Assembly (NCBI GenBank): GCA_030826945.1
Contig: JAPQLC010000010.1
Span: 1-64,000, forward strand
DNA: 64,000 nt
From: Candidatus Thiobius zoothamnicola
GTDB taxonomy: Bacteria; Pseudomonadota; Gammaproteobacteria; Chromatiales; Chromatiaceae
Direction: 5' to 3'
Every line of letters starts with the position of its first letter. Position 1 is the first letter of the stretch. Positions 299-49,272 of this stretch are shown here, piece after piece. The position numbers were made by a program, and so were the translations under genes. The notes beneath the pieces are model-generated. The model made no database searches and was not told where the DNA came from. It saw only the letters and a list, made by a program, of their open reading frames with translations.

Positions 299-2404
299 TC
301 ATTTTAGTGGATTGATGCGGCGTTGACCGGCTGCCTGAGCGGCTTGACCGTCAACCAGAATGTGCGGCGTCACAAAGATCAGCAATTCATGTTTTTCATC
401 TTGCACCTGATGTTGACGGAACATCACGCCCAGCAGCGGCAGATCGCCCAATAACGGTATTTTGGCGATGCGACGTGCCTGAGTCCGCTCAAATATGCCG
501 CCAAGCACCACAGTCTCGCCATGATCAACCAACACAGTGGTTTGCAATTCACGCGTGTCCACAGGCGGCACACCGAGTACGGCGCGGGTGAAATCCGGAT
601 TATCCTTATTCACCTTCAAATCCATGATGACCCGATTATCCGGCGTAATATGCGGGATCACTTCAAGTTGCAGCACGGCTTCTTTAAACGAGACCGAGGT
701 GGCCCCATTGGAGGTGGCTTCCTGATAAGGAATTTCCATGCCTTGTTTAATGATCGCTTTGTTTTGATCTGAGGTGATCACCCGAGGGCTGGAAATGATT
801 TCCCCCTGACCTTCCTGCTGCATGGCGCTGAGTTCCAGACGGAGCAGGTGTTGGCCCACTTTACCCAATACGAAGTTCATCGCCCCACCACTGCCAGTCG
901 CTAACGTTTGTGGCAAATTCACCAATAATGCTTGATTACCCGAGCCGGCCGGGTTTTCAATCATTGTTTGTCCGACCTTGGGATCCCAGGCCATATCGCC
1001 CGGTAAACCACCGCCCAGACCAAGATTGGTGGAACCGCCAGCATAATAATCCGCCCCTAAACGAACGCCCAGATCCCTGGCGAAATCGTCATTGGCGATG
1101 ACAATCCGCGATTCAATCAATACTTGGCGGATCTGCACATCCAGTTCACGGATCAACTGGCGGATTTCCGATAATTTGGCCGGAATATCCTGCACCAGTA
1201 ATGTGTTGGTGCGTTCATCCATGCTCACATTGCCGCGCTCAGAAAGTAAACGATTGTCGGTTGATTTCAACAGCGCGGCTAAATCACTCGCTTTGGCGTA
1301 GCTGACCGGAATCAGCGCCGAACGCAATGGCACCAGATCTGCTTTTTGAATCTGTGATTCCAGCTCCAATTTTTCCCGCGCCGCCAATTCTTCCGTGGGG
1401 GCAACGAGTATCACGTTGCCTTCGTGCCGCATCGACAAGCCTTTGGTTCGCAAAATCATATCCAAAGCTTGATCCCAGGGCACGTCCCGCAGACGTAAGG
1501 TGATATTGCCAGTGACGGAGTCATTGACGATGATATTTAATCCCGTGAAATCAGCCAGTAGTTGGAGTACGGAACGCAATGGAATATCCTGAAAATTCAG
1601 GGACAACGGCTCGCCGGTATAAGTGCCCTCAACGATTGGCTGGTCAAGCTGGACGACAACCGGTGACGGGCGAAATGCCAATGTATGAATGTGGTTACGC
1701 TGATAAGCCAGATAGGTGAAATTCGCCATTGTCTGGATAACCACGCGTACGCCATGCGCCCCGGTTTGCGCCGTGATTTTACGTATGGGCGGTATAAAAT
1801 CCGTCTGAAGCACTTCATCCAACCCGGCAGATAAACGCGTATTGAATAAATCCACCGCAATTTCCTGACCTTGTTGATAAATATGCGTCGGCACGCCGCC
1901 ACGGCTCAGATGGATTCGCACTTTGCCGCCACCCTGTGAATCAGGTTTGAAATCAATATGATGCAGCATCGCCATATCCGCTAAATCCAGATTCGGGATT
2001 TGATGTGCTTTTTCCGACGCAATCTGAATGTGGATTTCACGACCCTGAACACTGACCTGATGCACCGTCGGTTTGAGCAGGCTAATCACCACACGCGTCA
2101 TTCCGTCGGCTTCGACGGCACTGATGCGGTGTACCAAGTCGTTCGTCATCCATAACGTTTTCTGTTTTAACCCGCTCTCGGTTTGTGGTAAATCAAGCAC
2201 TATGCGCGGCGGATGATCCGTGGTGAAAGTCAACGGACGCACTGCCTCATGATCCAGTAGCAAACGAATCTCCAACTGATCCGCCGATGATTCATGATGA
2301 TGAATGGCTTCTAATTGGGCCGCCTGAACTTGTCGGCATGCGCCCAACCAGCCAAGCCATAAAATCAAAAAGATCGAGAGGTGGCGATAAAACGGCCCAG
2401 GCAT
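299..2404 (-). CDS. pilQ: Type IV pilus secretin PilQ
   Basis: 701 aa. Outer-membrane secretin through which the type IV pilus is extruded. The N-terminus has a hydrophobic export signal (residues about 9-29) that contains an LGAC tetrapeptide resembling a lipobox. Two AMIN-type peptidoglycan-binding domains follow (about 31-120 and 147-240), then the N0/STN domain (about 270-320), an N1 domain (about 360-430) and the C-terminal secretin barrel (about 480-690). The barrel carries conserved VPPVDTRELQTTV and ETVVLGGIF segments and the terminal KIPLLGDLPLLG motif. It is the last gene of pilMNOPQ and begins 2 bases after the pilP stop. Length and order match gammaproteobacterial PilQ. Confidence 0.97.
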   Translation of the reverse strand: MPGPFYRHLSIFLILWLGWLGACRQVQAAQLEAIHHHESSADQLEIRLLLDHEAVRPLTFTTDHPPRIVLDLPQTESGLKQKTLWMTNDLVHRISAVEADGMTRVVISLLKPTVHQVSVQGREIHIQIASEKAHQIPNLDLADMAMLHHIDFKPDSQGGGKVRIHLSRGGVPTHIYQQGQEIAVDLFNTRLSAGLDEVLQTDFIPPIRKITAQTGAHGVRVVIQTMANFTYLAYQRNHIHTLAFRPSPVVVQLDQPIVEGTYTGEPLSLNFQDIPLRSVLQLLADFTGLNIIVNDSVTGNITLRLRDVPWDQALDMILRTKGLSMRHEGNVILVAPTEELAAREKLELESQIQKADLVPLRSALIPVSYAKASDLAALLKSTDNRLLSERGNVSMDERTNTLLVQDIPAKLSEIRQLIRELDVQIRQVLIESRIVIANDDFARDLGVRLGADYYAGGSTNLGLGGGLPGDMAWDPKVGQTMIENPAGSGNQALLVNLPQTLATGSGGAMNFVLGKVGQHLLRLELSAMQQEGQGEIISSPRVITSDQNKAIIKQGMEIPYQEATSNGATSVSFKEAVLQLEVIPHITPDNRVIMDLKVNKDNPDFTRAVLGVPPVDTRELQTTVLVDHGETVVLGGIFERTQARRIAKIPLLGDLPLLGVMFRQHQVQDEKHELLIFVTPHILVDGQAAQAAGQRRINPLK

Positions 2405-2406
2405 GC

Positions 2407-2925
2407 TTAATTCCCCAAACGAAGCACAACCATTTTCTCATGCAAACGATGCCCTAATGGCGCCCGTTCAACCAGCCTGATTTGATCGGCCTGGATATCA
2501 ATGACCTGCCCCTGCTGCTGCCCCATATAATGCCCAACAGCCACCCGATGAATCACTTGGTTTTGATCACGCACCAAAGCCCAACGCAGATCATCACGCA
2601 GGATACTGCCTACCATACTCAGGCTATCCAAAGCATAACTTTCCAATACGTCCTTTGACCGCTGTCGCTCGGGTTGCACCGCCTGTTTTGGGGAGTTTAG
2701 CTGTTGGGTTGTCAGGAATATCCGGTCCGCCGTAAATGGATCACGTCGATCCTTGGCTTCGTAGGTAAAAGCAGGTATTGGCGAAGGTTTGATTGGCGTT
2801 TCGATATCACCTACCGCCGGACGTGAATGAATCCGCTCGACGTAGGCCGTCAAATCCGGCATGCGTTCTTCCGCACAGCCAGCCAACCATAGCAACGAAA
2901 GCCCATAAATGCGTATGCAAATCAC
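2407..2925 (-). CDS. pilP: Type IV pilus lipoprotein PilP
   Basis: 172 aa. Inner-membrane lipoprotein that links the PilMNO platform to the PilQ secretin. The signal peptide ends in an LAGC lipobox (lipidated Cys17). A proline-rich linker follows, then a C-terminal beta-rich domain (about 85-170) with the PilP pattern around SMVGSI and WALV. The start codon overlaps the pilO stop by 4 bases, indicating translational coupling. Confidence 0.95.
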   Translation of the reverse strand: MICIRIYGLSLLWLAGCAEERMPDLTAYVERIHSRPAVGDIETPIKPSPIPAFTYEAKDRRDPFTADRIFLTTQQLNSPKQAVQPERQRSKDVLESYALDSLSMVGSILRDDLRWALVRDQNQVIHRVAVGHYMGQQQGQVIDIQADQIRLVERAPLGHRLHEKMVVLRLGN

Positions 2926-3524
2926 CCGTTATTTTCATCCGGCTGGTAACGATAGGTTTTGACTGTCGCCTCCATCACCAGCAAATTATGCGCCGTTCGA
3001 TCCACAGATTGCGGCTGGATCGTCATATCATGCAAAGTGATGATCCGAGGCAAAGCCGCCAATGCGCTGATGAACTGGCCCAACTGATGGTAATCGCCAA
3101 GCACGCGAAACCGGAGTGGCAATTCAACGTAAAACGCGCCGGTGACAGCATCCAACGGCTGAAAAAAGACAAACTCCAATCCCGCTGCCAAACCTGTTTG
3201 CGACACATCGGTCAATAAATCAGACACATCCACCTGTTCCGGCAACTGCTTCAGCATGGCGGCAAAGGTGGTTTCCTCCCGCCGTAATTGCGCGCGGCGG
3301 CGCGCTAGATTCGCCGCCTGGCTTTGTTGCGATTCAAAAGTTTCGCGCAGCACGCCTTCCTGTTCGATCAGTTGCTGTAATTGATGCTGTTGCGGTTGAA
3401 TCAGCCCGAAATAAGCCACCACCAATAACCCCAAACACAACACCATCATGAATAACCACTGCGCCGACTGCGGCCAATCAGCCATCTCCCCCAAATCCAA
3501 CTCGTTCAACGCTGGTAAGTTCAT
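2922..3524 (-). CDS. pilO: Type IV pilus alignment protein PilO
   Basis: 200 aa. Bitopic inner-membrane protein that pairs with PilN and binds PilP. It has a short cytoplasmic N-terminus, one transmembrane helix (about 24-44), a periplasmic coiled coil (about 46-100), then a ferredoxin-like domain with the ELPLRFRVLGDYHQLGQFISALA pattern typical of PilO (only part quoted: ELPLRFRVLGDYHQ). It overlaps pilP and pilN by 4 bases on each side. Confidence 0.95.
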   Translation of the reverse strand: MNLPALNELDLGEMADWPQSAQWLFMMVLCLGLLVVAYFGLIQPQQHQLQQLIEQEGVLRETFESQQSQAANLARRRAQLRREETTFAAMLKQLPEQVDVSDLLTDVSQTGLAAGLEFVFFQPLDAVTGAFYVELPLRFRVLGDYHQLGQFISALAALPRIITLHDMTIQPQSVDRTAHNLLVMEATVKTYRYQPDENNG

Positions 3525-33351: not shown

Positions 33352-34035
33352 TTACTTTCTCCAAATCATTGAACTAAACGCGCCAGCCAGCATCCCAACA
33401 AGGATAGCAATATAGACAGGCTGAATTAACAAAAGAAAAGCGGTTAAAGCGGCGGAAATCGCAACAGATGCTGCATACTTATGCCAATCCATACTCAATA
33501 GCAACGATAAAAAAAGCGCTGGCAAAATAAAAGCCAACGCATCCTTAATAATCCAATTATCTTCAAGTAGCTCATACCCAGCGACAACCCCAATCAACGT
33601 TCCAACCACCCATGAGAGATAAGCACCTAATTGCAACCCAATTAACCAATACTCACGATCATTTGGAGCAATACTATCCATTCCCCCTACGGCGCTGGCA
33701 AAAACTTCATCTGTTAAACCAAATGCAAGCAGTGGCGCAGGCACTGTTCTTACCCCATCTTTAAGGCGATCAATAATCGCCTTACCATACAGGAAATGTC
33801 TTGCATTCATGAGTAATACAGTTGCCACAATGCCATATATGGCTCCTCCTGTAGAAAGCAAACCAATAAGAACAAATTGGCTTCCCCCTGCGAAAATCAA
33901 CGCTGAAATAAGAATAACTTGATCAGGAGAAAGTCCCGACTGTAGCCCACTTACCCCAAAAGAAAAAGCAATCGGCAAATAACCCACAACGATTGAGAAA
34001 CTACAAAATAGCCCTTTTATCACTGCTAGAAACAT
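33352..34035 (-). CDS. azlC: AzlC-family branched-chain amino acid exporter
   Basis: 227 aa, about seven transmembrane helices. Recognisable AzlC features are GYLPIAFSFGV near the start, ILISALIFAGGSQFVLIGLL, LLMNARHFLYG, and LTDEVFAS. The start overlaps the end of the XRE-cupin-methyltransferase gene by 10 bases, so regulator and exporter are co-expressed. Confidence 0.93.
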   Translation of the reverse strand: MFLAVIKGLFCSFSIVVGYLPIAFSFGVSGLQSGLSPDQVILISALIFAGGSQFVLIGLLSTGGAIYGIVATVLLMNARHFLYGKAIIDRLKDGVRTVPAPLLAFGLTDEVFASAVGGMDSIAPNDREYWLIGLQLGAYLSWVVGTLIGVVAGYELLEDNWIIKDALAFILPALFLSLLLSMDWHKYAASVAISAALTAFLLLIQPVYIAILVGMLAGAFSSMIWRK

Positions 34036-36044
34036 TTATCTTTTGTCTTAGGCTTACTGAATGTAAAAACATGAGTACCACTATCAAACTCATCACTCCC
34101 GCTAGTGGAAAAAACACGCCTGTGTCTCAATAAATTAAGTCCCGCCAAGTGCGCCAGTTCATTGAATCTACGCGAGTAGGTCTTTCGCTCCACCTCATAA
34201 TCAAATCCCGCAACCATAGCTTGTAATTCAAGCCAGTAAAAACGCACAAAAAACCCAACCACATGCACTGGCTGCTTTTCAATGCCCTCATCCCGCAAAT
34301 CCGTAAAAAGTTTTCGGCAAATATTCACCGCTTGCTCCACCTTAAATTCAGTTGCTGCAAGTTGAGCGGTAATCATTGCGCTCTTAATTTTTCGATAAAG
34401 TACGACATCTCTATTTTCAATGGGTAAATCCTCCCCCTCGACCCAAGCCATACTTGCAAGAATGTATGCACTATGGTGGCGAACAAGAGTAAGATTCCGT
34501 TCACTCTGATTGGAGAACTCAGATAAAAACTCATCTGCAACAATAAGTAAACCACCTGATTGTAGCAAGGTATAGGCTTTTTGCAGCATAAATGCTGTAT
34601 TAAAATGGTGAGAAGCACCGACAGAAGTGATGACAGAAACCGATGAAGATTTTTTGCTAAATTCAAGAAAATCAATTTGCTGTACATCAATCATTCCAAG
34701 ATTTTCTGTATTGTCTATTAGACAAGAAAAAGCATAGCTATCAGGCTCAATTGCTGTAAAATGAAGATGTGGATATAACTCTTGAAGCATCAACAACGGC
34801 ACTCCAGGACCAGAACCAACATCTATTACTGAAGAAGTAATATGGAAATCAGCAAACTCACAAAGATCTTCTGCGAGCGCCACAACTTGTCTTGCATAAG
34901 CAGGATGAAGAAGTTCAAATGCATCATAATGTTCAACATTGATGCGACTTGAGAATGTTTGATCTGACATAAAAGAGCCCGCACTCTCTACCTTATTATC
35001 AGACAAACCAGTAAGTTGATGAGGCAAACGCAATATTCCACGCTGCTGCAAGACTTCAGATGCCAGGCTATTAAGAATCCATGAATCACCCTCAATATAA
35101 TGTAAAAGTTCCTCTAACTTTTGTTCGTCTAAAGGAACTGATGCTGACTCAGCCAACCAAGCAAGCTCTCGTGTCGTATTCATCACTGAAACATTCGGCC
35201 AGTTAGTCCTAAAGTCACTCCGTGCAAAACAAGAAGTTATACCAAGTCGAATAATGGCCACAAAAATACCCTGTGAATCTGATTCAACTAAAACCAATAA
35301 TGGCCATAAGAAATTAGTGGTTTTAAGACTTTGCAACTCCTTTATTAACGTTTTTTTATCAACAGATTTATCTCTAACGCCTCCTTCTCGGAAAGGCAAC
35401 ACACGCACAACAATTCCGTTTGCAACCTCAATCAATGCGCGATCTAGAGCAGAGCGAACCCCGTCCCATGCGGTAGCTGTAATTGGCCAATCAATATACG
35501 TGCTTAACACATAATCTGAATATGCCTTGGAAGGATATTCAATAAAAACAACAGCCCTAGTATTTTGGTCAGTTGCTGCATAAATATGAGGGATATCGGC
35601 ATCAAACAAGTAAGACTCACCAGCCCTGATTAAACGTGGACGATCAGCATCACCAACCAACATAATGCCCGATAAGACCGTCACACGCTCCTTAACACCT
35701 CTGGGATGTGGAGCTGATTTTTTGCAATGACCAGCTTGAAGATCAATTGAATAAACTTCAATTTCAGGCTCTCCTGTTGATTTTTCTATAAAACAAACAA
35801 TTTCTCCTTCATTTCGCAGCTTATCGCTCCCACCACCCTCCTCTTCAACAAGGCGACCAAAAGAAATATCAAGTGCGTTAGCAATCGCCCACAATGTTTC
35901 AACAGTAGGATTTCCTTCACCATTTTCCATTTGAGACAAAGTGGATTTAGCAACACCACTATGCTCCGACAGCCCCGTCAAGGTTAAACCACTCTGATTT
36001 CGGATTCGACGCAAATTACGACTTATTGATTCTGTAATATTCAT
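34026..36044 (-). CDS. XRE regulator-cupin-methyltransferase fusion protein
   Basis: 672 aa with three recognisable parts. Residues 8-62: XRE-type helix-turn-helix (SGLTLTGLSEHSGVAKSTLSQMENG in part). Residues about 95-170: cupin sensor barrel, including the VLSGIMLVGDADRP and AGESYLFDADIPH strands. Residues about 370-530: Rossmann methyltransferase with motif I VIDVGSGPG (406-414) and an acidic residue ending strand 2 in AIEPDSY. Residues about 190-360 and 530-672 match no family I know. XRE-cupin regulators commonly sit beside azlCD, but a fused C-terminal methyltransferase is unusual. AT-rich. Co-translated with azlC. Confidence 0.85.
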   Translation of the reverse strand: MNITESISRNLRRIRNQSGLTLTGLSEHSGVAKSTLSQMENGEGNPTVETLWAIANALDISFGRLVEEEGGGSDKLRNEGEIVCFIEKSTGEPEIEVYSIDLQAGHCKKSAPHPRGVKERVTVLSGIMLVGDADRPRLIRAGESYLFDADIPHIYAATDQNTRAVVFIEYPSKAYSDYVLSTYIDWPITATAWDGVRSALDRALIEVANGIVVRVLPFREGGVRDKSVDKKTLIKELQSLKTTNFLWPLLVLVESDSQGIFVAIIRLGITSCFARSDFRTNWPNVSVMNTTRELAWLAESASVPLDEQKLEELLHYIEGDSWILNSLASEVLQQRGILRLPHQLTGLSDNKVESAGSFMSDQTFSSRINVEHYDAFELLHPAYARQVVALAEDLCEFADFHITSSVIDVGSGPGVPLLMLQELYPHLHFTAIEPDSYAFSCLIDNTENLGMIDVQQIDFLEFSKKSSSVSVITSVGASHHFNTAFMLQKAYTLLQSGGLLIVADEFLSEFSNQSERNLTLVRHHSAYILASMAWVEGEDLPIENRDVVLYRKIKSAMITAQLAATEFKVEQAVNICRKLFTDLRDEGIEKQPVHVVGFFVRFYWLELQAMVAGFDYEVERKTYSRRFNELAHLAGLNLLRHRRVFSTSGSDEFDSGTHVFTFSKPKTKDKCF

Positions 36045-36842: not shown

Positions 36843-37307
36843 ATGCCGGCGAAAAAATATCGCGTGGAATTGACTCCAGAAGAACAGGCGGAGTTGAACG
36901 ATTTGTTACGTAAAGGGAACTGCGCGGCACACAAACGCCGCCATGCGGAAGTCTTGTTGAAAGCGGATGAGGGGACCGAAGGCCCGTCCTGGATGGACGC
37001 ACAAATCAGCGAAGCCTTTGGGGTCAGTGTTCGCACGGTAGAACGTATCCGGCAGCGTTTGGTGGAACGGGGTCTGTCGGCGGCGCTGGAGCGTGCCCCA
37101 TCAACGCGTCACCGCGCCCCGCGATTAGACGGAGAACAGGAAGCCCATCTGGTGGCCCTGGCTTGCCAAACCCCGCCGGAAGGGCGTAGTCGCTGGACCC
37201 TGCGCCTATTGGCAGAACGGATGGTCGTGCTGGACTACGTGGATGAGTTATCGCATGAAACCGTGCGTCGGGTTTTAAAAAAACGCGATCAAGCCCTGGC
37301 AGCGTAG
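36843..37307 (+). CDS. IS630-family transposase, N-terminal frame
   Basis: 154 codons. Helix-turn-helix region: ELTPEEQAELNDLL, then AQISEAFGVSVRTVERIRQRL, then a winged-helix second half ending in ETVRRVLKKRD. The frame diverges after a run of seven A residues (37277-37283). One base further along, the alternative frame reads NAIKPWQRREWCIP, the expected continuation of IS630 proteins. So this reading frame is the front half of a protein completed from the next frame. Confidence 0.85.
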   Translation: MPAKKYRVELTPEEQAELNDLLRKGNCAAHKRRHAEVLLKADEGTEGPSWMDAQISEAFGVSVRTVERIRQRLVERGLSAALERAPSTRHRAPRLDGEQEAHLVALACQTPPEGRSRWTLRLLAERMVVLDYVDELSHETVRRVLKKRDQALAA

Positions 37308-37353
37308 GGAATGGTGTATTCCTGCGCGGGCCAATGCTGAATTTGTTTGCGCG

Positions 37354-37980
37354 ATGGAAGATGTCTTGGCGGTCTATAAGCAACCCTATGATCCCAAACG
37401 CCCGGTAGTTTGCCTGGACGAAAGCAGCAAGCAACACACGCAGGAAGTGCGTGAACCCTTACCACCGAAACCGGGCAAACTGGTGCGCTATGACACGGAA
37501 TACCAACGCAATGGCGTCAGTAACCTGTTCCTTTTCTTTGAACCGTTGGCCGGTTGGCGACAGCTATCCGTCACCGATACCCGCACAGCGGTAGACTGGG
37601 CCCAACAAATCAAACACCTATTGGATGTGCGCTACCCGGACGCGGATCGGATTCAACTCGTGATGGACAACCTCAATACCCATACGCCGGCATCGCTCTA
37701 TAAAGCCTTTGACCCGGCGGAGGCACGACGTTTGGCGGAACGTTTGGAGATTCATTACACGCCGAAACACGGCAGTTGGCTCAACATGGCGGAAATTGAA
37801 TTCAGCCATCTCGGGCGCCAATGCCTGGATCGGCGGATACCCGACCAAAACACGCTCAAACAAGAAGTGGCCGCCTGGACAGACCAACGCAACGAAAACA
37901 AAGCACAGATGAGCTGGCGTTTCACCACCGAAGATGCACGCATTAAGTTGAAACAACTTTATCCGACAATAAAAGAGTGA
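37354..37980 (+). CDS. IS630-family transposase, C-terminal DDE frame
   Basis: The true coding part of this frame begins near 37279, before the ATG at 37354. DDE catalytic domain: first Asp in VVCLDESSKQ, second in LVMDNLNTH, and the Glu in WLNMAEIEFSHL. It ends in the RFTTEDARIKLKQLYP tail usual for IS630. Needs a +1 (or -2) frame change from the first part at the A7 run, by ribosomal or transcriptional slippage, or the element is simply mutated. Confidence 0.87.
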   Translation: MEDVLAVYKQPYDPKRPVVCLDESSKQHTQEVREPLPPKPGKLVRYDTEYQRNGVSNLFLFFEPLAGWRQLSVTDTRTAVDWAQQIKHLLDVRYPDADRIQLVMDNLNTHTPASLYKAFDPAEARRLAERLEIHYTPKHGSWLNMAEIEFSHLGRQCLDRRIPDQNTLKQEVAAWTDQRNENKAQMSWRFTTEDARIKLKQLYPTIKE

Positions 37981-45898: not shown

Positions 45899-46200
45899 TT
45901 TAATATGCCCTCTAATTATAAACTTTCAAATCTCAGCGAACTAAAACAACATGATTAATTACGGAAATAATCAAGATAACAAACGACTTATCTTAAAAAG
46001 ATATTTTAAGACAGCCAGATTCACACTTACCCCTTCACCAACAATATCCTACCAGGCCCCAAAACATAACCGTCAGTAGTTATGTTCAAGTATTATTGTG
46101 GGTTATACAAGTTCACCAATTCATTTGTCAATATTACGGCAATTGAACAAACTTCCGATGCGTTTATTAAGCTAGCCATACCTCCATCGCAAATTGAAAA
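45899..46200. other. Divergent AT-rich intergenic region
   Basis: 302 bp between the SOR-like gene and the STAS/ATPase cassette. Contains two hairpins: CTTAAAA/TTTTAAG (45992-46010) and AACATAAC/GTTATGTT (46063-46086, 8-bp arms, 8-base loop). No gene seen. Confidence 0.5.
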
Positions 46201-47208
46201 ATGAAACGAATAACGTCAGACCAAATTATCCGGCAAAAACGATTATTACATATACGAGCCAAGCGAAATAACCGCAAGAAACAACGAAGAGAATCAGGTT
46301 CGCCAAGCTATTCTAGAGTAAAAGCCCCTGAGACTTTCAATCTAAAGGATCAAAAAGCACGATCTAATCTCCTTAATTTCATTAACCAAATCAAACAAAA
46401 ACATTTAGAGAGAAAAAACATCTTGATAGATTTTTCAGCGACTAAGCAAATGTCTGCTGATGGAACGTTGCTTTTCAAAGCAGAATTATGCCGTTTAGCC
46501 AAATATTTATCATCAGGGCAAACTTACCAATGCAAGTTGCCACATCATAACCGGATCAAACAGGTACTCCAGCAAACAGAAATTCTTCAATTACTGAACT
46601 ACAAAGGCAAAGTTTCCACAACTTTGCAGGAAGTTATACATTGGCATACTGCCAATGGTTCAAATACTGATGGCTCCCAATATGAACCTGTATTAGGGAA
46701 TTACGAAGGTCAAGTGGAAGAGGAGCTACTCACCGGGCTGTACGTCGGTCTGACCGAAGCCATGACAAATACGACCCAGCATGCTTACCTCGAAACTCGT
46801 AACGACCTGCTTAAAGTGGGATCCAAAGAAGAAGGATGGTGGATGTTTTCACAGAAAAAAGATGGAAAACTGAGCATCCTGTTTTGTGATTTGGGTATTG
46901 GCATCCCTCGGTCACTACCGAAGAAAAGACCTAACTTATTGAAAATAATGAAAGAACTCAGAATCAATTCTCAAGACCATGAATACATTAAAGCAGCCAT
47001 TGATGACAGCCTCAGCCGTACAGAACAACCATACAGAGGAAAAGGTCTGGGACAGATGGTGCGTATATTGAAGAACATTCCCGAGTCATCTATGCTGATA
47101 TACAGTAATAAGGGATATTACCAAGCAAAACCAAATGATCAGATATACGCAGTAGACTACAAAGATTCCATCATGGGCACTCTGATTTGCTGGTCAATTA
47201 ATCTGTAA
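46201..47208 (+). CDS. STAS-domain and GHKL ATPase protein
   Basis: 335 aa. Basic N-terminal tail (1-48), a STAS-like domain (about 50-150, with NILIDFSATKQMSADGTLLF), then a GHKL/HATPase domain (about 170-335): N-box E186-x3-N190-x3-H194 (LTEAMTNTTQHAY), G1 box CDLGIGIP (229-236), G2 box RGKGLGQM (279-286). No sensor or dimerisation helices of a normal histidine kinase are visible, so a partner-switching ATPase of the anti-sigma type fits better. First gene of an AT-rich three-gene set with 12-bp and 16-bp spacings. Confidence 0.8.
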   Translation: MKRITSDQIIRQKRLLHIRAKRNNRKKQRRESGSPSYSRVKAPETFNLKDQKARSNLLNFINQIKQKHLERKNILIDFSATKQMSADGTLLFKAELCRLAKYLSSGQTYQCKLPHHNRIKQVLQQTEILQLLNYKGKVSTTLQEVIHWHTANGSNTDGSQYEPVLGNYEGQVEEELLTGLYVGLTEAMTNTTQHAYLETRNDLLKVGSKEEGWWMFSQKKDGKLSILFCDLGIGIPRSLPKKRPNLLKIMKELRINSQDHEYIKAAIDDSLSRTEQPYRGKGLGQMVRILKNIPESSMLIYSNKGYYQAKPNDQIYAVDYKDSIMGTLICWSINL

Positions 47209-47220
47209 AGGCTTACACCG

Positions 47221-47523
47221 ATGAAAACCGTTACCATAGCAACTGATTTCACCCGATATCCAGCAGGTCGCGTACGCACAGACGGGCCTTACAGCGGAGA
47301 AGCCTTCCGTGAGGATTACCTCGAACCCGAATTGAAAATTGGCGAACGTGTTCACATCATTCTTGATGGCGCAAGAGGCTACGGCTCCTCCTTTTTGGAA
47401 GAAGCTTTTGGCGGACTTCGCCGCCAAGGTTACACAAGGGAGCAGATAGAAAAGTTGGTTGAGGTTGAATCAAACGAGGATCCTAGCCTGATAGGAGAAA
47501 TCAACAGCTACATTAACACCTGA
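47221..47523 (+). CDS. STAS-like domain protein (DUF4325)
   Basis: 100 aa. ATDFTRYPAGRVRTDGPYSGEAFREDYL, then VHIILDGARGYGSSFLEEAFGGLRRQGY (quoted in part) match the DUF4325 STAS-like pattern: a strand with an Asp-Gly turn and a conserved GYGSSF(L)EEAF helix. Likely binding partner of the adjacent STAS-ATPase protein, by analogy with anti-sigma antagonist proteins. Starts 12 bases after the first gene; GGC/TTACACCG precedes ATG and the ribosome-binding site is weak. Confidence 0.85.
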   Translation: MKTVTIATDFTRYPAGRVRTDGPYSGEAFREDYLEPELKIGERVHIILDGARGYGSSFLEEAFGGLRRQGYTREQIEKLVEVESNEDPSLIGEINSYINT

Positions 47524-47539
47524 CAAAACATAATACGGC

Positions 47540-48046
47540 ATGGCAATCGCTGTTTTTGAATGGTGGAATGCCATTCCTTGGGTGTTGATCATCATCGGGT
47601 GGTTAATCATTAACCATCAACATAATGCCCGAGAAACACGGAAGGAACGCCGTGATCAACTTGACAGACTCATCAGCCAACTTGCTGAACTCGAAAAAAA
47701 AGCTATCGCTTTCCACACTGCGTCAAAACATGATGATTACCCTCAAAGAGAGCTGACTCGTAATATCAGTAAGATTTGGCCGCAAATCAAACAGCTTGGG
47801 TTATTGGAAAATAGTAACGATATCAAACAAATAGTTTCAGATATCCGTAAGGAAATTACTCTGAAGAATGCTGACCGAAGTACTTTTAAACCTCAATCTA
47901 TCAACGACTTGGATGGCATTTCCGACAGTATTGGCGTCCTCGTAGACAAACTGAATGCAGCATATATACGCAAATATCACCGGACATTTTCCATGCGTAT
48001 TTTGGATTGGATGACTTCGGTTTTGCCAAAGACTGGTTCACCCTAA
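47540..48046 (+). CDS. Membrane-anchored coiled-coil protein of unknown function
   Basis: 168 aa. A single N-terminal transmembrane helix (about 9-25), then a charged helical region (about 28-70, ARETRKERRDQLDRLISQLAEL start) and further helices. No family recognised. It is the third gene of the cassette, 16 bases after the STAS-like gene, and could hold the signalling pair at the membrane. It ends 38 bases before dapC. Confidence 0.65.
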   Translation: MAIAVFEWWNAIPWVLIIIGWLIINHQHNARETRKERRDQLDRLISQLAELEKKAIAFHTASKHDDYPQRELTRNISKIWPQIKQLGLLENSNDIKQIVSDIRKEITLKNADRSTFKPQSINDLDGISDSIGVLVDKLNAAYIRKYHRTFSMRILDWMTSVLPKTGSP

Positions 48047-48084
48047 TAAAATCAGCGGGTGAAAAAACTTGATATTTCCTGCTT

Positions 48085-49272
48085 ATGAACCAAGATTTGG
48101 AAAAACTGCATCCCTATCCCTTTGAAAAGCTGCGCAACTTATTTGCTGATCGCCAACCGCCGGATCTACCGCACATTGCGTTATCCATTGGTGAACCCAA
48201 ACATACCACGCCAGCTTTCATCGCCAATGCCCTGATTGAGCACATGGGTGCGTTAGGCAACTATCCGACAACGAAAGGTATATCAGCGCTCCGTGAAACA
48301 ATCGCCGACTGGCTGACGCAACGTTTCCAATTGCCATTGCACAGTATTGACCCTGACAAGCAGGTATTGCCCGTGAACGGCACGCGCGAAGCACTATTCG
48401 CATTTGCCCAGGCAGTGATTGAGCGCCATACGCAACCGCTCGTGATAGCGCCAAACCCTTTTTATCAAATCTATGAAGGTGCAGCCTTATTAGCTGGCGC
48501 TGAACTGGCATTCACCCCTTGTATCGCTGAAAATCATTATCAACCGGATTTTTCAGCGATCCAGGCAGCGGACTGGCGACGCTGCCAGTTGCTTTATATC
48601 TGCTCGCCCGGCAATCCCACCGGAGCCATTATCCCGCTAGAGACCTTGCAATCATTGATTGAACTGGCTGAAAAATATGATTTCATCATTGCTTCAGATG
48701 AATGTTATAGCGAATTGTATTTCAACGAAGCGCAAGCACCAGTTGGACTATTACAGGCTGCAGCGGCGATGGGCAATACAGCTTATCGCCGCTGCGTGGT
48801 ATTTCACAGTTTATCCAAACGTTCCAATGCGCCAGGGTTACGTTCAGGCTTTGTCGCAGGGGACGCGGACGTATTAGCCCGGTTTTTGCACTATCGTACT
48901 TATCACGGCTGCGCCATGCCAGTGCAACACCAGCAGGCCAGCATCACCGCTTGGCGGGATGAAACCCATGTCCAACAAAACCGGGACCAATATCAACGCA
49001 AATTTCATCACGTCATTAACAAACTCAGGCCCGTATTGCCAGTGCAACAGCCCCAGGCCAGTTTTTATTTATGGGTCAAAACGCCTTACAATGATAAGGT
49101 ATTCGCGCGTGATTTATATCAGCAACAACATATCAGCGTATTGCCTGGCAGCTATTTATCGCGCTCAGTGGAAGGCATAAATCCTGGTACCGGCCATGTT
49201 CGGATGGCGTTGGTCGCTGAATTGCAAGAATGCGTGGAAGCAGCCGAGCGAATCGTGAATTTTATGACGTAG
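48085..49272 (+). CDS. dapC: Succinyldiaminopimelate transaminase DapC
   Basis: 395 aa. Class I/II PLP aminotransferase of the lysine/meso-diaminopimelate pathway (succinylase branch), converting N-succinyl-2-amino-6-ketopimelate with glutamate. The N-terminus MNQDLEKLHPYPFEKLRNL is typical of DapC. PLP lysine in HSLSKRSNAPGLRSGF; YICSPGNPTGA and ASDECYSELYF are further cofactor segments. Monocistronic here. Confidence 0.93.
   Translation: MNQDLEKLHPYPFEKLRNLFADRQPPDLPHIALSIGEPKHTTPAFIANALIEHMGALGNYPTTKGISALRETIADWLTQRFQLPLHSIDPDKQVLPVNGTREALFAFAQAVIERHTQPLVIAPNPFYQIYEGAALLAGAELAFTPCIAENHYQPDFSAIQAADWRRCQLLYICSPGNPTGAIIPLETLQSLIELAEKYDFIIASDECYSELYFNEAQAPVGLLQAAAAMGNTAYRRCVVFHSLSKRSNAPGLRSGFVAGDADVLARFLHYRTYHGCAMPVQHQQASITAWRDETHVQQNRDQYQRKFHHVINKLRPVLPVQQPQASFYLWVKTPYNDKVFARDLYQQQHISVLPGSYLSRSVEGINPGTGHVRMALVAELQECVEAAERIVNFMT

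Follow-up and report, generated by a model that had tools for sequence, protein, structure and literature searches.

The GHKL kinase-like protein, the DUF4325 protein and the single-pass membrane protein (hereafter K, S and M) encoded side by side in the 64,000-nucleotide stretch of DNA analyzed here (the window) form a real, widespread and co-inherited module, which is rare, patchy and mobile. The best reading of this triplet is a VapKSC-like partner switch with its output at the membrane that, by analogy, probably serves in phage defense. Taken as a whole, we slightly favor the proposal of a mobile kinase-substrate-membrane module ('K-S-M') that would work by partner switching, with the freed M halting the infected cell. 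This proposal draws on gene order and linkage, motif conservation, predicted folds, co-inheritance and genomic location.

Layout and spread of the cassette

The three genes are co-directional on the forward strand and are separated by gaps of 12 and 16 bases. K (46201-47208, 335 aa), S (47221-47523, 100 aa) and M (47540-48046, 168 aa) are open reading frames that coincide exactly with the three closely spaced genes described in an earlier note on this DNA. The GC content of the cassette is 39-44% per kb, compared to about 45-54% in its surroundings. The earlier note had called this composition foreign, and cassettes were AT-richer than their flanks in 136 of 136 loci, by a mean of 10 points, so that a foreign composition characterizes the cassette in general. 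A divergent small gene lies on one side and a DapC-like aminotransferase gene, named by sequence, on the other, starting 38 bases past M (48046-48085). A promoter scan of the leader (46080-46200, forward strand) scored no better than shuffles and gave no confident promoter, and a terminator scan revealed nothing exceeding chance; with no terminator found between the cassette and the aminotransferase gene, read-through is possible. The cassette is present once in the source genome and in none of 54 relatives. Eleven relatives carry the aminotransferase with varying genes upstream of it and show no sign of the cassette, a comparison that speaks to absence alone. None of the three proteins matched a PADLOC-DB 2.0.0 profile at E 1, and NCBIfam profiles gave nothing meaningful for them. 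Elsewhere in the window, a 672-aa AT-rich protein in which an XRE-type HTH was recognized by eye (34026-36044, reverse strand) is possibly another foreign gene, and two open reading frames that resemble an IS630-like transposase by eye (36843-37980, forward strand) probably represent a frameshifted insertion sequence.

Relatives of the DUF4325 protein were found on 197 viral contigs and 215 genome contigs. With DUF4325 as the anchor, the best 160 loci had the ATPase gene directly 5' in 151 cases (four more were cut by contig ends) and the transmembrane third gene directly 3' in 152 (three more were cut). Distinct kinases numbered 138, because some viral and genome loci represent one element. 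The distance matrices of the three proteins were correlated (r 0.76, 0.60 and 0.55; permuted maxima ≤ 0.12), as would be expected if the proteins travel together. The self-contained unit proposed in the earlier note is thus conserved across phages, plasmids and genomes, and the objection that its genes might not co-occur elsewhere fails on the counts of 151/160 and 152/160. The same gene order occurs in Marinobacter phage AS1, in plasmids of Vibrio, Acinetobacter, Pasteurella and Leptospira, and in a Helicobacter prophage, and the hosts include alpha-, beta-, gamma- and zetaproteobacteria, Desulfobacterota, a Nitrospira MAG, Leptospira and Helicobacter. The kinase was present in 8 of 321 genomes of a class-wide draw, and a single-sequence ATPase search of the viral contigs returned no match. 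Two viral contigs (L022 and L041, about 500-3320) carry a second cassette back to back with the first, directly after it and on the opposite strand.

The three predicted proteins

K comprises a basic N-terminal helix (aa 6-31), a STAS-like stretch (about aa 37-168) and a SpoIIAB/RsbW-like GHKL ATPase domain (about aa 170-335). It matched phrog_3364 over nearly the full length of the profile (E 8.4e-50; K aa 39-335, profile 6-290 of 304), and Pfam HATPase_c_2 weakly. The GHKL motifs quoted in the earlier note (E186/N190/H194, DLGIGIP and RGKGLGQM) are all present, and the ATP-binding motifs of a GHKL kinase are complete. Conservation across the 138 distinct homologues was 100% (rounded) at E186, N190, D230, G232, G282 and T327 and 99% at H194, and W213 was invariant. 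An AlphaFold2 model of K (pLDDT 92) was compared with known structures by VIA-align, and the matches, which span only residues 147-335, placed SpoIIAB at the top (Z 12.9 to 1th8, then 12.5 and 12.4) and RsbW at 11.1, with a plateau near Z 9.5 of Hsp90, CheA and topoisomerases. A profile of the K family searched against PDB sequences gave RsbW first (E 0.002) and SpoIIAB second. The ATPase domain is preceded by a beta-alpha-beta-alpha-beta-alpha stretch. Its alignment with ordinary STAS domains is in register but weak (P 0.035), and an N-terminal STAS domain is likely on this evidence; no conserved phosphoserine was found in this stretch among the 138 homologues. The N-terminal tail (family medians of about 45 residues and net charge +13, one-third K/R) is a candidate for binding nucleic acid or the membrane.

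Since SpoIIAB and RsbW are the closest folds to K, it is conceivable that K binds a host sigma factor that S releases in the manner of the SpoIIA and Rsb circuits, with M coupling membrane stress to the switch. We consider such an anti-sigma circuit very improbable. As the earlier note had observed for this locus, there is no adjacent sigma factor: no dedicated one was found, either within the operon or among its recurring neighbors, and the two rpoD neighbors belong to the housekeeping dnaG-rpoD site. Moreover, control of a dedicated host sigma factor fits poorly with a module that is carried on mobile elements and scattered patchily among phyla. The likeness of the triplet to SpoIIAB/SpoIIAA and RsbW/RsbV lies in the GHKL serine kinase fold, the N-box E..N..HAY and a candidate phosphoserine that opens a STAS helix; the triplet differs from them in having no sigma factor, a STAS-like domain within the kinase and a membrane third partner. 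We regard the kinase-switch part of K-S-M as likely, in agreement with the switch proposed in the earlier note. About three chromosomal copies of the cassette adjoin yqeY/dnaG/rpoD, which suggests a recurrent insertion site.

S is, on its sequence, certainly a member of DUF4325, as the earlier note had recognized (Pfam PF14213, 48.1 bits against a curated cut-off of 23). Its candidate phosphosite is Ser57 in the motif GYGSSFLEEAFGGL, which aligns weakly with FFGSSFIELL of the STAS protein 3t6o (E 0.067), an alignment that places Ser57 at the position of the SpoIIAA phosphoserine; the relation of DUF4325 to STAS by sequence is weak here both in this comparison and by hhalign (P 0.11). The SSFLEE stretch appeared completely conserved in scans for which it doubled as the search pattern, and we discount this conservation because the scans were made with that very pattern. 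A motif-free survey of PF14213 in 299 genomes found Ser57 kept in 7 of 7 triplet-type DUF4325 proteins, each flanked by a kinase gene 5' and a membrane protein gene 3', and the site varied outside this subfamily. An orphan DUF4325 protein without a kinase is encoded on an 882-kb replicon of Vibrio parahaemolyticus listed as a plasmid (L170, 6001-6342); it has Gly at the Ser57 position and adjoins an ImmA/IrrE metallopeptidase, and its family also occurs in V. vulnificus.

M has the single transmembrane helix that the earlier note had predicted, a hydrophobic N-terminal segment that runs on into a long cytosolic helix (AlphaFold2 helix 8-60), followed by helices 66-86, 92-107, 121-146 and 150-161 (pLDDT 92). 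In 130 of 152 loci, the residues that follow the transmembrane segment are more positively charged than those that precede it, which suggests that the C-terminal side is inside; in that case M would have no extracytoplasmic domain. No Pfam family matched M, and no relative among PDB sequences or structures was found below E 0.001. The top structure match in BFVD was an unnamed 159-aa viral protein (A0A3G2YTK2, TM 0.61-0.64), possibly the third protein of AS1, going by equal length; apart from it, no convincing relative emerged from Pfam, PDB or BFVD. No known fold matched M, and its proposed mode of action is a guess.

M is the least conserved of the three proteins (median identity 16%; the kinase has 26% and DUF4325 has 44%). 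This rapid evolution, together with a transmembrane segment, long helix and bundle that superficially resemble the sensor domains of sensor kinases (QseE, E 0.015), could reflect a reversed wiring, in which M senses membrane damage or the entry of phage DNA and signals to K and S, which would act on some other target. Such an arrangement is unlikely, because M appears to lack an extracytoplasmic domain, an operon with M as its sensor would have no effector, and the third gene of VapKSC encodes a toxin. We lean moderately toward M being an effector rather than a sensor.

Genomic setting

Of 69 viral loci, 38 have a CI-like repressor gene within four genes 5' of the cassette and on its strand. 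In 25 of these the repressor gene is immediately upstream; it almost never lies downstream. An independent Pfam census found Peptidase_S24 in 17 of the 58 genes immediately upstream, in addition to other CI/HTH repressors. Phage lambda keeps rexAB in the slot beside cI, as accessory genes that are expressed in lysogens and include one membrane protein. The cassette resembles RexAB in its position beside CI and in having one membrane protein, but RexAB includes neither a kinase nor a STAS partner, and we know of no sequence relation between them. In the UV-inducible Francisella phage KIRK, CI is followed by proteins of 293 aa, 112 aa and 125 aa, all called hypothetical (PMC7924643); the 112-aa protein is a DUF4325 member and the 125-aa protein has a transmembrane segment, so that the phage carries a triplet that went unremarked in that paper.

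In many viral loci the cassette lies next to CI and points the same way, and transcription is a common target of partner switches, so K and S might instead tune the neighboring CI, or prophage induction, according to host state, with M as an anchor or sensor. This control of lysogeny seems to us rather improbable, because intact triplets occur without a repressor on plasmids, on an ICE-like plasmid and on chromosomes among housekeeping genes, and a repressor is within four genes in only about half of the viral loci. The reading that we prefer, a defensive switch, would have temperate phages carry the cassette beside CI as part of a defense gene set expressed in lysogens.

Plasmid copies lie near toxin-antitoxin pairs, one copy lies in an ICE-like element, and chromosomal copies are mostly found among housekeeping genes or integrases. 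The earlier note had asked for counts of conserved triplets and of their nearness to defense genes; triplet conservation was borne out, but nearness to defense genes was not, as defense neighbors were only occasional, with type I restriction-modification genes beside about 4 of 63 chromosomal loci. Given that most chromosomal copies lie by housekeeping genes or integrases, enrichment near defense genes is not demonstrated.

Known kinase/STAS switches and a proposed mechanism

The closest characterized system to the triplet, judged by its organization, is VapKSC, a mobile, defense-associated anti-phage operon of a kinase, a STAS protein and a VapC toxin (Chambers et al., EMBO J 2026, PMC13373217). 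Its STAS-GHKL kinase is proposed to phosphorylate the STAS antitoxin at a conserved Ser/Thr, freeing the VapC nuclease. Cells that carry the operon are protected against phage Bas42 by about 2 logs, an effect that is lost in mutants of each component (PMC13373217). Both systems are mobile and have a GHKL kinase gene first, with an N-terminal STAS domain that is likely but weakly matched in K; the second gene encodes a substrate with a conserved Ser/Thr, for which S, with its weak likeness to STAS, is the candidate here; and the third encodes the output protein, a role that M would fill. They differ in the third gene, which encodes the PIN nuclease VapC there and a transmembrane, helical-bundle protein without a Pfam family here; in the substrate, which here would be a DUF4325 protein, from a family that PMC13373217 does not mention; and in the strongly basic N-terminal tail of K (median net charge +13). 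CapK, a relative of VapK that is activated by ssDNA in vitro, and CapS control transcription of a neighboring immune operon (PMC13373217). K and S resemble them as a GHKL kinase with a probable STAS domain plus a candidate STAS-like substrate, and lack the HTH of CapK and the wHTH of CapS; K was likened to VapK and CapK by their published description rather than by aligned sequences. CapK and VapK have essential aromatics at the start of STAS (W68 and F54, respectively; PMC13373217). No strictly conserved aromatic was found there in the K family, and the trigger may therefore differ.

The lack of a PIN protein in the cassette sets the triplet apart from VapKSC, and the lack of a sigma factor in the operon or among its recurring neighbors speaks against a sigma circuit; by analogy, the triplet would work like both kinds of switch. 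The plasmid matches comprised other kinase-DUF4325 pairs and no vapKSC. Our literature searches found nothing on DUF4325 together with defense, only Shedu/VcSduA, of different design, on GHKL proteins and phage defense, and no published account of the function of the triplet.

From the order and logic shared with VapKSC we infer a partner switch with its output at the membrane, most likely leading to abortive infection. K would be a SpoIIAB/RsbW-type serine kinase with Ser57 of S as its target. In the resting cell, unphosphorylated S, or a K-S complex, would bind the cytosolic helices of M and hold M in an inactive state. Some signal of infection by a phage, which may be ssDNA as it is for CapK, would reach K via its basic tail or via the STAS/GHKL groove. 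Phosphorylated by K, S would then swap partners, and the freed M, acting at the inner membrane, would arrest the growth of the infected cell or kill it, by toxicity or membrane damage. An anti-phage role for K-S-M is reasonably probable by this analogy, and the phage response suggested in the earlier note is plausible, given the prophage position and the VapKSC-like kinase/STAS logic. It is possible, and we put this forward tentatively, that an infection-activated serine kinase that phosphorylates DUF4325 and so unleashes a membrane-acting killer constitutes an undescribed class of phage- and plasmid-borne immunity. If so, this would be the first function for DUF4325 and would provide one for phrog_3364 and the unnamed membrane family, all of which co-occur in hundreds of contigs from phages and bacteria. 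The triplet would then be the membrane branch of STAS-kinase immunity, and the kinase/STAS switch of VapKSC and CapKS would be a plug-in controller whose output can be exchanged (transcription, RNase or membrane).

Natural fusions, namely a STAS-GHKL-DUF4325 single chain on a Nostoc plasmid (L270, 1914-3158) and GHKL-DUF4325 single chains (L200, L207, L208 and L215), point to K and S acting together. Single chains of winged HTH, GHKL and DUF4325 (L181, L182 and L184-L186) have Ala at the Ser57 position and are probably a transcription regulator branch. Pairs of kinase and DUF4325 without a membrane gene were also observed, in a Streptococcus agalactiae record (L282, 2566-3755) and on an Alicyclobacillus plasmid (L280), and one such two-gene pair lies directly after phage lysis genes.
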